DNA from: Candidatus Syntropharchaeum sp.
GTDB taxonomy: Archaea > Halobacteriota > Syntropharchaeia > Syntropharchaeales > Syntropharchaeaceae
Direction of reading: 5' to 3'
Assembly (NCBI GenBank): GCA_026134025.1
Contig: JAOQII010000017.1
Coordinates: forward strand, 1-34,079
DNA: 34,079 nt
Translations under genes and position numbers: made by a program
Notes under the pieces: generated by a model
Told to the model about the DNA's origin: nothing
The model's database searches: none
Seen by the model: the letters and a program-made list of their open reading frames with translations, nothing else
Shown here: positions 5,988 to 9,507 of the stretch, in pieces
Layout of the letters: each line of letters starts with the position of its first letter
Position numbering within the stretch: the stretch's first letter is position 1

Positions 5988-7896
5988 GATTGGATACAGG
6001 CTCTTTGGTGAAAGGATCCTGAAAAAGAAGATCTATTATTTTGGACTTCAAAAGAGGCTGCGACAGTCGCAGATCCCCTATCCATTCGATCAGTACGTCG
6101 CATCTGCGATCATGTACTCGTTGATCGCGGCCGTGATCGGGGGTCTTCTCGGTTACCTCTTTGCACCAACGCTTCTCAGGATGATTGAGTTCTATACACC
6201 CATGTTCAATATCCATCTAACATCATCGTTCTCCTGGCTTGCACCCTGGCGCGATCTTATTGTAACAGTTATCGCATCCTTCACCCTATTTCTGATTTTC
6301 TGGCAGGCTACATACCGTCTGATCCTTTTTTATCCATCGCTTCTTCTCAGTCTCCGAAAAGACGAGATGGATAGTATCCTCCCACATGCTGTCACTTTCA
6401 TGTATGCACTCAACAAGGGTGGGATGAACCTTCTCGATGTCTTCAGGACGCTCGCATCCCATAGAGGTATCTACACCGTGGCATCAGATGAAGCAGGTCG
6501 CATTGTTCGCGATGTTGACTACCTGGGGTACGATCTTACAACCGCGCTTCATAACGCGAGTCAGTCATCTTCTTCTGAGCGGTTCAGGGATTTCATCGAG
6601 AACATGACATCGGTAATTGATAGTGGGGGAGATCTAAAGAGCTATCTCGGAAAGCAAGCGAAACAGTATCAGGAGGATGCTGTAGATGAGCAGAAGGCAT
6701 TCCTTGAGATGCTTGAACTCATCTCAGAGTCTTATGTCACGCTATTTGTCGCAGGACCAATCTTTCTGATCGTTGTAATCGTTCTCATGGGCATGATGGG
6801 CTCGGTCTATGTTAGTTTTCTCTACCTCCTGATCTATGCCGTAATCCCGATCGGATCGCTTGCGTTCATCGTCCTTATAAACTCGATCTCAAGATCGGTG
6901 CACGAGGAGGGTGGTGAAAAGGTCATTAAAACGAGAAGACGTATCGATGTATTCAGAGATGTCAAAGAGATCAGGGTTGAGCCAGATGCTGAAGCAAGCT
7001 TTTTCAGGGCACTCCAGAGATATGAGATGCTGGAGCGCCCAATCACTTTTTTGAAGCATCCGTATCGAGCGTTCATCGAAGCGCCAAGACGGGTGCTGTA
7101 TCTTTCGATCCCTGCATCGATTCTTTTCTTGGTTTTCATGCTCAACAGGCTTGAAACACTCACACCTGGTTCTGTAGATGATATTTTATTCTTTACTCTT
7201 CTTATCGCATTTGTACCCTTTGCCCTCACGTTTGAGATCAAGGGGCGGATTGTTAAGGCGATCGAAAAGGCTGTGCCTGACTTTCTCAGCTCACTTTCAA
7301 GCGTGAGTGGTGCAGGACTCACGTTAAAGCGTGCGATTGAGACCGTTCTCAGATCGGATCTTGGTGTTTTAACAAGTGAGGTCAAGAAGATCAGGTCTGA
7401 TATGGAATGGGGAAGTTCAACCCAGGATGCACTCTACAAATTCGAAGAGCGTCTAAAGATTGGGGCGGTTTCTCGTGCAGTAACGCTGATCGTAAAGGCT
7501 TCAGAGGTTTCAGGCGATGTTAGAGAGGTCTTATCGATCGCTGCAAAGGATGCAGCGACTACCGAGCGATTGCGGGAGGAACGATACTCAAACACCTTCA
7601 TCTATCTCATCATAATATACATAGCGTTCGGGGTCTTTCTCGGAATACTTTACGTCATATCTTCAGTCTTTTTGCCACTCATGCCATCTCCAGAAACGAT
7701 TCCACTCCAGCAGACGGTAAGATCGTCCATAGCTCCCAGTGCTTACAGGCTCCTCTTCTTCCATGCAGTCCTGATACAGGGTTTTTTCTCAGGGCTTATA
7801 GCAGGTGAGATCGGCGAGGGCAATGTCCTAAGCGGTATAAAGCACGCGCTCATCATGATGACGATCGCATACACGCTCTTCATGCTTTTTCTCTGA
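5962..7896 (+). CDS. Archaeal type IV pilus platform membrane protein (FlaJ/TadC type, two T2SSF domains)
   Basis: 644 residues with two type II secretion F domains. The first is around residues 140-220 (TFMYALNKGGMNLLDVFRTL ... SGGDLKSYL) and the second around 430-520 (DFLSSLSSVSGAGLTLKRAI ... ASEVSGDVREVL). Each is followed by hydrophobic helices, and the N- and C-termini also carry membrane segments. This is the double-length arrangement usual for archaeal FlaJ/PilC-like platforms. It couples the cytoplasmic motor encoded just upstream (26-nt overlap) to extrusion of pilin subunits. The 3' end overlaps the convergent trmY gene by 17 nt. Confidence 0.92.
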   Translation: MMRMNLIDRIGYRLFGERILKKKIYYFGLQKRLRQSQIPYPFDQYVASAIMYSLIAAVIGGLLGYLFAPTLLRMIEFYTPMFNIHLTSSFSWLAPWRDLIVTVIASFTLFLIFWQATYRLILFYPSLLLSLRKDEMDSILPHAVTFMYALNKGGMNLLDVFRTLASHRGIYTVASDEAGRIVRDVDYLGYDLTTALHNASQSSSSERFRDFIENMTSVIDSGGDLKSYLGKQAKQYQEDAVDEQKAFLEMLELISESYVTLFVAGPIFLIVVIVLMGMMGSVYVSFLYLLIYAVIPIGSLAFIVLINSISRSVHEEGGEKVIKTRRRIDVFRDVKEIRVEPDAEASFFRALQRYEMLERPITFLKHPYRAFIEAPRRVLYLSIPASILFLVFMLNRLETLTPGSVDDILFFTLLIAFVPFALTFEIKGRIVKAIEKAVPDFLSSLSSVSGAGLTLKRAIETVLRSDLGVLTSEVKKIRSDMEWGSSTQDALYKFEERLKIGAVSRAVTLIVKASEVSGDVREVLSIAAKDAATTERLREERYSNTFIYLIIIYIAFGVFLGILYVISSVFLPLMPSPETIPLQQTVRSSIAPSAYRLLFFHAVLIQGFFSGLIAGEIGEGNVLSGIKHALIMMTIAYTLFMLFL

Positions 7897-8512
7897 ACTT
7901 TAGCGCCACCCTATCGATCTCATTTAAAAGCAGGATGATGCAGTGATCCGCATGAAGAACCCTTGGACCAACCGAGATTCGAGAAGCTCCAAGATCATCG
8001 AGAAGTTTTTCATCTGCCCGGTTCAGTCCTGTATGATCACCAAGCACAAATAACGGATCTTTATCAAGCCATTCTTCAATCTCGGACTCAATCCCTCTTA
8101 TATCCCTGGATGCTTCTTGAAGATAGATTATCGGATCAAAACCTCCCTCCTCGATGAGATCGTAAAGGTCGCCTCTTCTTATCGTAATCCCGGGCGTACT
8201 TCGCCGAATATCACCACTATCCAGCCCAAGACCTTCTTTCAGGGCAATCTTGATCAATGCAGCGGTGCTACGTTCATCTGGATTCAGATGTTTGAGGTGA
8301 CCACCATCAAGGGTTAAGATCTTTGGTGGATCACCCTTCCCTCGAAGGATGAGATGCAGCTGAATATCACGCCTTATTCCATGTGATAGAAGAAATGCAG
8401 AGTTCACAGACCTGCACAGCACATCTATCCGCCCAGATGATCCAGGAAGGTCATCCAAGCTGAATTGTGGGCTTGTGAAGGCGAGGTTTCCAACCACGGT
8501 GATATGTTTCAT
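7880..8512 (-). CDS. trmY: tRNA (pseudouridine(54)-N1)-methyltransferase TrmY
   Basis: TrmY is a SPOUT-class enzyme using S-adenosylmethionine to turn pseudouridine 54 of archaeal tRNA into N1-methylpseudouridine. The protein matches the family throughout: DLPGSSGRIDVLCRSV, LLSHGIRRD, STPGITIRRG, and the C-terminal SAM-binding knot FVLGDHTGL ... RISVGPRVLHADHCI. The ATG at 8512 gives 210 residues, close to the family's ~200. The frame runs open further upstream to 8686, but that extension crosses the divergent promoter and has no similarity. A TATA-like GTATAAAAAC lies 29-38 nt upstream. Monocistronic; convergent with the pilus platform gene. Confidence 0.95.
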   Translation of the reverse strand: MKHITVVGNLAFTSPQFSLDDLPGSSGRIDVLCRSVNSAFLLSHGIRRDIQLHLILRGKGDPPKILTLDGGHLKHLNPDERSTAALIKIALKEGLGLDSGDIRRSTPGITIRRGDLYDLIEEGGFDPIIYLQEASRDIRGIESEIEEWLDKDPLFVLGDHTGLNRADEKLLDDLGASRISVGPRVLHADHCIILLLNEIDRVALKFREKA

Positions 8513-8540
8513 AGAACCAGATTCTCGGGGATAAAGATAA

Positions 8541-8550
8541 GTTTTTATAC
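8541..8550. promoter_or_regulatory. Shared TATA-like element between trmY and the LSm gene
   Basis: GTTTTTATAC reads as TTTTTATA for the rightward LSm operon and TATAAAAA for leftward trmY. Expected starts are near 8572 (leader of ~27 nt with AAAGGAGGAG at 8581-8590) and near 8520 (8-nt leader). It is the only strong TATA-like run in the 86-nt divergent gap. Confidence 0.5.
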
Positions 8551-8598
8551 TCTGAAATTGAAATATGTACATAAGTGTAGAAAGGAGGAGAAGGTAGG

Positions 8599-8820
8599 TT
8601 GTTTCCAAATAAGAAGATACAGAGTTTGATTGGACAAAAAATTCAGGTAGAGATGAAAGGGGATAAAAATATGCTTGAAGGCACACTGGTGAGTGCGGAT
8701 GACTATCTGAACCTTTATCTAACCTCTACAGCCGAGATTATAGATGGTGAACGAAAACGGGTACTGGGATCCGTTGTGCTTAGGGGGAACAATATCATCA
8801 TGATAAATCCCGTGAACTGA
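8599..8820 (+). CDS. Archaeal Sm-like (LSm) RNA-binding protein
   Basis: 73 residues, the usual archaeal LSm size. The Sm1 motif is SLIGQKIQVEMKG ... LEGTLVSADDYLNLYL and Sm2 is LGSVVLRGNNIIMI. Such proteins form six- or seven-membered rings that bind U-rich RNA and act in RNA processing or small-RNA metabolism. The start codon is TTG at 8599, behind AAAGGAGGAG at 8581-8590. The usual archaeal partner, ribosomal protein L37e, does not follow. Instead a winged-helix/cysteine-cluster protein starts within about ten bases, and GatC follows that. Sequence divergence suggests it could be a second LSm paralogue rather than the main one; other genome copies are not visible. Confidence 0.85.
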   Translation: MFPNKKIQSLIGQKIQVEMKGDKNMLEGTLVSADDYLNLYLTSTAEIIDGERKRVLGSVVLRGNNIIMINPVN

Positions 8821-8821
8821 G

Positions 8822-9232
8822 GTGTTGGTTTTGCTTGAGAATACAATTCTTGAACTGATTGCATCGGAAGAGAAGGAAGGAATCAGGCAGAGCGATATCT
8901 GGAAGCAGATTGGGATAGATAGCAGGACATGTTCAAGGGTCGTAACAAGACTGGAGAATAAGGGACTGGTCATAAGAGAGTGGGAGACTATCGGAAACAC
9001 GAGAACGTATCGTATCTGGTACGTTGGAAAGGATGGAAATGGCGAAGTAAAGGTAGAGCAGATAGAGCCTCCTGAAAAGGTTGAGTTAGAGGAGAAATCC
9101 GTTTCTAAGCTCACAGATGACTATTCATTCCTCCTCATCGAAGATACGCTTGCGCCATGTGTTAATTGTAACGAGATGTGCGAGCCAGAGACCTGTATCA
9201 AGCTCGCTGAATGGATAAATCTACTCTTATGA
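8822..9232 (+). CDS. Winged-helix protein with C-terminal Cys4 cluster, TFE-beta / RPC39 (RPC34)-like
   Basis: 136 residues. Residues ~5-66 form a winged helix (ILELIASEEKEGIRQSDIW, RVVTRLENKGLVIRE, a TYRIWYV wing). After a charged linker comes CVNCNEMCEPETC (Cys113, 116, 120, 125) followed by IKLAEWINLLL. That ending mirrors the 4Fe-4S tail of RNA polymerase III subunit RPC39/RPC34 and archaeal TFE-beta (PC..C....C ... P..C.....EWL), with a shorter loop between cysteines. TFE-beta helps open promoter DNA during archaeal initiation. The link is motif-based inference; another MarR/Lrp-like FeS regulator is possible. The GTG at 8822 falls inside the GAGGTG Shine-Dalgarno, so TTG 8831 may be the real start. 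It overlaps gatC by 4 nt. Confidence 0.65.
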   Translation: MLVLLENTILELIASEEKEGIRQSDIWKQIGIDSRTCSRVVTRLENKGLVIREWETIGNTRTYRIWYVGKDGNGEVKVEQIEPPEKVELEEKSVSKLTDDYSFLLIEDTLAPCVNCNEMCEPETCIKLAEWINLLL

Positions 9233-9507
9233 TATCAGATGAAGACGTCAAACACCTGGGCTGGCTTTCGCGGGTAGAACTTGAAAAAGAAGATTCTGAG
9301 AAGTTTGCCAGGGAACTTGATAGAATACTCGATTATTTCACGATACTTGATGCTGTAGAGTCAGATCTTTCGCCCCTGCACCATGTACTGGAGCTTTCGA
9401 ACGTCTTCAGGGATGATGTGGTAGCTGACTCACTCACAGCTGAAGAAGCACTCTCCAATGCAAAGCTGCAGGAGAATGGATACTTCAGGGCACCACGGAT
9501 TTTGTGA
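9229..9507 (+). CDS. gatC: Asp/Glu-tRNA amidotransferase subunit C (GatC)
   Basis: GatC stabilises GatA in the GatCAB complex that converts Asp-tRNA(Asn) and Glu-tRNA(Gln) to the amidated forms. The sequence shows family features: an N-terminal ISDEDVKHLGWLSRVEL helix, FARELDRILDYF, the LSPLHHVLEL linker, NVFRDDV, and a C-terminal NGYFRAPRIL. ATG 9229 forms an ATGA overlap with the preceding stop and gives the usual ~92 residues; an in-frame ATG at 9211 is an alternative. gatA and gatB do not follow: the next gene is on the other strand. It is coupled to the LSm and TFE-beta-like genes, all serving RNA or gene expression. Confidence 0.9.
   Translation: MISDEDVKHLGWLSRVELEKEDSEKFARELDRILDYFTILDAVESDLSPLHHVLELSNVFRDDVVADSLTAEEALSNAKLQENGYFRAPRIL

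Follow-up and report, generated by a model that had tools for sequence, protein, structure and literature searches.

An open reading frame beside an LSm gene of Candidatus Syntropharchaeum is best explained as a euryarchaeal TFE-beta with a compact Cys4 tail

The open reading frame at positions 8822-9232 of the DNA stretch analysed here (34,079 nucleotides of a Candidatus Syntropharchaeum sp. contig, called the window throughout) is best explained, as judged from its sequence, as the euryarchaeal form of TFE-beta, the archaeal RPC34/RPC39. The archaeal orthologues of RPC34 have been described as proteins in which one winged helix-turn-helix is combined with a domain of the form CxxC-x(3-5)-C-x(4-10)-C; their Cys domains differ between euryarchaea and crenarchaea, and the genes of non-haloarchaeal euryarchaea are predicted to share a transcript with Sm-like genes (Blombach et al. 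2009, PMC2770514). The window gene, tfeB, shows every one of the sequence features published for archaeal RPC34, and an adjacent, apparently co-transcribed Sm-like gene is found here as well. It is thus an ordinary member of its group: both its motif spacing and its gene context are normal, and its kind was already described in 2009. Our analysis gives a firm name to a gene for which domain searches return MarR or TFIIIC-like labels, and it corrects the notion of a functional tie between GatC and TFE-beta. The part worth pursuing is the set of architectures found in relatives of the window gene: tail-only, domain-swapped and lost forms are natural experiments on the essential part of TFE-beta.

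Identity of the winged-helix Cys4 protein

Counted from the GTG at 8822, the reading frame on the forward strand encodes 136 amino acids. The TTG at 8831 appears to be the likelier start, as a GAGGTG Shine-Dalgarno-like site is located at 8819-8824 and the relatives align from the Leu-Glu that follows this codon. The two parts that had been recognized by the sequence-only reading, i.e. one winged helix and a Cys4 tail, are both present, and the tail reads C-VN-C-NEM-C-EPET-C-IKLAEWINLLL. The pattern CX2C-X3-5-C-X4-10-C-X2-[LMI]-X2-W occurs once in the six-frame translation of the window; 60 shuffled windows contained no instance of it. The four cysteines and the tryptophan of the tail are invariant in 17 of 17 aligned sequences, and the invariant positions of the winged helix in the same sequences include Q, WK, DS and CS. 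The closest sampled relative, which belongs to the same genus, has a protein with 69% identity. A scan of named archaeal genomes yielded 80 loci, mainly from Methanosarcinales, Methanocellales, Methanotrichaceae and Methanoperedenaceae, and the orthologues at all 80 carry CX2C-X3-C-X4-C-X2-[LM]-X2-W or a near-identical motif; across the phylum, the tail profile matches 201 of the 394 sampled genomes. The shortened cysteine spacing that had been singled out earlier is real but not peculiar to this gene: it is the normal euryarchaeal form. A spacing variant, CX2C-X4-C-X4-C, is present at two loci of a more divergent branch (family f10), with LSm still upstream.

Profile searches with Pfam returned three matches on the winged helix, i.e. 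TFIIIC B-block (4e-8), MarR (PF01047, 9.6e-8) and DUF7646 (9e-7), and no match on the Cys4 tail. The TFIIIC B-block and MarR profiles fit the winged helix alone better than the RPC34 profile. With RNA_pol_Rpc34 (PF05158) the window protein stayed below the cut-off and is thus not filed under that model, which exceeded its cut-off in none of the 59 relatives' genomes and in one control genome only. Nor did profile searches of the PDB reveal a significant direct sequence link to RPC34. Since the MarR profile matches all 17 aligned members, and since a 2023 survey labels HTH genes adjacent to lsm as MarR or Lrp/AsnC (PMC10221803), the protein might be taken for a MarR-like regulator that acts on specific genes and carries unrelated cysteines in its tail. 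We consider this most improbable: MarR is the expected next-best match for archaeal RPC34 and a source of misannotation (PMC2770514), the tail cysteines are invariant rather than incidental, and the tail is retained even where the winged helix has been lost or replaced. Moreover, the AlphaFold model begins at helix 1 of the winged helix and is predicted to lack the long dimerisation helices of MarR proteins, with only a terminal helix of eight residues at its C-terminal end. In this model the linker is disordered and the tail is moderately confident. Foldseek matched it to TFIIIC, MarR and the structure of RPC39 winged helix 2 (2dk5), none below an E value of 0.001, and did not separate RPC39 from MarR. 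The euryarchaeal genes beside lsm that are listed as MarR in the survey may themselves encode TFE-beta.

The assignment to TFE-beta was also compared directly with human RPC39, using a query sequence identical to PDB 7a6h chain P. When the human tail is aligned with the tail profile, the Pro-Cys and the final Cys-X2-[LM]-X2-W fall in register (hhalign P 5e-4). This score was reached by 2 of 400 full shuffles and by 5 of 400 shuffles in which the cysteines were kept fixed, and the tail match is therefore suggestive: it supports the link to TFE-beta but is not conclusive alone. The second winged helix of human RPC39 aligns with the winged-helix profile at P 0.0024. Taken singly, the direct sequence link to the human protein is weak. 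In the HMM search that had been proposed as a check, PF05158 was not matched; what supports the identification as TFE-beta is its conservation across the family, the genes around it and the published literature. Of the two outcomes that had been named as refuting it, MarR-type matches do occur on the winged helix, with cysteines that are invariant, and a bona fide TFE-beta elsewhere in the genome was not found: in this genome (92.5% complete) the window gene is the sole match to the TFE-beta profile. A TFE-alpha gene was found as well (PF02002, 82.5 bits). In locus L139 (964-1950) the SRP RNA and a tRNA-Ser(GCT) gene directly precede this TFE-alpha gene, which occupies 1450-1950.

Neighbouring genes: LSm and gatC

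The gene is located between an LSm gene and gatC, and we infer that the three genes are transcribed together (Table 1). Ten nucleotides separate the LSm stop codon from the TTG of tfeB, and the tfeB stop codon overlaps the gatC ATG by four nucleotides (ATGA, 9229-9232). A T/A-rich, TATA-like stretch is present at about 8544-8553 in the intergenic region upstream of LSm. The divergent gene on the other side of this region is trmY, encoding the tRNA pseudouridine-54 methyltransferase (7880-8512, reverse strand); the same layout is found in a relative of the genus.

Table 1. Features of the tfeB locus in the window
Feature	Position	Strand	Evidence and remarks
LSm/SmAP gene, TTG start, first in predicted operon	8599..8820	+	PF01423 2.4e-19
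tfeB, putative euryarchaeal TFE-beta (RPC34/RPC39-like)	8831..9232	+	133 aa from TTG; ORF reaches back to GTG 8822
Winged-helix domain, residues 1-65	8831..9025	+	Pfam winged-helix profiles; AlphaFold pLDDT above 90 across most residues
C-terminal Cys4 tail (predicted 4Fe-4S), CX2C-X3-C-X4-C-X2-L-X2-W	9119..9229	+	Invariant in A1/A2/A3; profile versus human RPC39 tail
gatC	9229..9507	+	TIGR00135 2.2e-23; adjoins tfeB only in the window's genus
Putative shared promoter region, trmY (-) versus LSm-tfeB-gatC (+)	8513..8598		Sequence reading; promoter activity predicted

The two neighbours differ in their conservation. LSm is directly upstream of tfeB in all 110 related loci (30 of 30 in whole genomes and 80 of 80 in the named genomes), and in the 80 named archaeal loci the distance between the two genes ranges from 2 to 57 nucleotides. 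The gatC gene follows in 2 of the 30 whole-genome loci, both of the window's genus, and in none of the 80 named loci; moreover, gatA is located on another contig of the same genome, away from gatC. Of the coupling suggested by the sequence-only reading, the LSm part holds and the gatC part does not, and the order LSm-wHTH-gatC is not conserved. We therefore reject a conserved functional operon of LSm, TFE-beta and GatC, with gatC missing from the 28 other whole-genome loci and from the 80 named ones and with gatA elsewhere. The overlap with gatC is a recent, local arrangement, and any link to tRNA amidation is likewise local since this neighbour is confined to one genus.

The strict pairing with LSm could also mean that the protein works with LSm in RNA metabolism and is not an initiation factor, with the tail as an RNP-docking element; the lineages in which the tail alone persists beside LSm, of which there are two (see below), would fit such a role. 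We regard it as very unlikely: family f3 keeps LSm without tfeB, indicating that tfeB is not required by LSm, and co-regulation alone may explain the pairing of the genes. The LSm neighbour of TFE-beta probably reflects the co-expression of RNA-handling and transcription proteins.

Variant forms of TFE-beta among relatives

Three kinds of departure from the two-domain protein were found outside the window. (i) In six genomes of family f7, and in G025, which belongs to family f6 of the window's class, the LSm gene is directly followed by a gene for a tail-only protein, a Cys4 domain of 40 to 47 amino acids. The winged helix of the TFE-beta family was not found elsewhere in these genomes. Between the six f7 genomes the tail shows many more synonymous than nonsynonymous differences (e.g. 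12-13 of about 25 versus 3-7 of about 95), whereas the spacer is riddled with insertions and deletions, indicating that the tail is under purifying selection. At one of these loci (L159), a stretch of 48 open codons precedes the tail and might be a remnant of an N-terminal domain. All genomes with the tail-only form carry TFE-alpha, and five of the six f7 genomes have two PF02002 genes over the cut-off; in the three f7 genomes inspected, both copies contain the winged helix and the zinc ribbon. (ii) A W-T-x-D/E-E...S-W-x-S-I-x-K-K segment and a predicted HTH stand before the tail, in place of the winged helix, in f11 (genome G062) and in f17 (five genomes), again at loci located after LSm. The N-terminal segment looks SANT/Myb-like, with Pfam support below threshold. 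(iii) In f3, the largest family of the window's class (about 50 genomes), no TFE-beta was found; LSm and TFE-alpha are retained in nearly all of these genomes, and at most of the f3 loci that were read a gene for an F420_oxidored (ProC-like) reductase starts within about 15 nucleotides after LSm. The absence of tfeB from the f6 genome G019 was set aside, as the contig ends inside LSm.

In crenarchaea, binding of TFE-alpha by TFE-beta needs the Cys domain, and the winged helix is dispensable (PMC4495717). The tail-only, swapped and lost forms agree with this result from Sulfolobus, in which the Cys domain rather than the winged helix is the core of dimerisation. It is tempting to speculate, and we lean slightly towards this view, that the Cys4 tail is the conserved core of TFE-beta, that the free-standing tail of f7 and G025 is a complete subunit together with TFE-alpha, that the N-terminal domain has been swapped in f11 and f17, and that TFE is thus a modular platform. 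If so, the tail-only forms are the natural counterpart of the minimal core, the TFE-alpha winged helix plus the TFE-beta FeS domain, that was proposed from deletion work in Sulfolobus. These relatives bear both on the dispensability of the winged helix for dimerisation and on the question of how archaea do without TFE-beta. Our literature search covered open-access papers, and there may be earlier reports of tail-only or SANT-fused forms.

Proposed role and comparison with known systems

The crenarchaeal orthologue is known as TFE-beta and stimulates promoter opening (PMC4495717). By analogy, we think it highly probable that the window protein is a euryarchaeal TFE-beta orthologue whose Cys4 tail docks on TFE-alpha, giving a heterodimer that aids promoter opening. 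The tail, probably with a 4Fe-4S cluster, would bind TFE-alpha as in Sulfolobus and Haloferax; the heterodimer would sit on the clamp of RNA polymerase and help to open the promoter DNA, and the winged helix would add contacts across the DNA channel. For the window protein, we infer the cluster type, the binding of TFE-alpha and the role in initiation from these characterized proteins. In the open-access literature we found no biochemistry on any euryarchaeal protein that carries the compact tail, the characterized Haloferax protein being devoid of the cysteines and functional without them (PMC5861453). The protein could also be a true TFE-beta homologue whose compact tail holds zinc instead of 4Fe-4S: its CX2C-X3-C-X4-C is shorter than the CX2C-X5-C-X10-C of the Sulfolobus and human proteins (PMC4495717), the domain was termed a Zn finger in the 2009 paper (PMC2770514), and the metal site is not represented in the AlphaFold model. 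However, the Cys4 domains of Sulfolobus TFE-beta and human RPC39 do carry 4Fe-4S (PMC4495717), and we think a zinc tail rather doubtful.

Among the described systems, the euryarchaeal RPC34/TFE-beta forms of Blombach et al. (PMC2770514) share with the putative TFE-beta of the window the single winged helix, a signature that includes the compact Cys4 tail, and the Sm-like gene upstream. Nothing essential differs: the window's genus has a longer linker, and gatC instead of other genes is located downstream. Sulfolobus solfataricus TFE-beta (Sso0944, PMC4495717) likewise has a winged helix, a C-terminal Cys4 domain and a TFE-alpha in the same genome, but it differs in the longer cysteine spacing given above; in Crenarchaeota, moreover, the neighbours are genes for tRNA/rRNA modification and a paralogue of TFB, unlike those in the window. 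The TFE-beta of Haloferax volcanii (PMC5861453) is euryarchaeal as well, combines a winged helix with a C-terminal domain and has TFE-alpha as its partner, but it has lost all four cysteines that the window protein keeps. The human RNA polymerase III subunit RPC39 (POLR3F, 7a6h chain P) shares the PC-X2-C...C...C-X2-[LM]-X2-W tail and a similar winged helix 2; in contrast to the window protein, it has three winged helices and larger loops in the Cys domain and is a stable subunit of the polymerase. Finally, MarR-family regulators have the winged-helix core in common with the window protein, which differs from them in the lack of dimerisation helices and in its invariant Cys4 tail.
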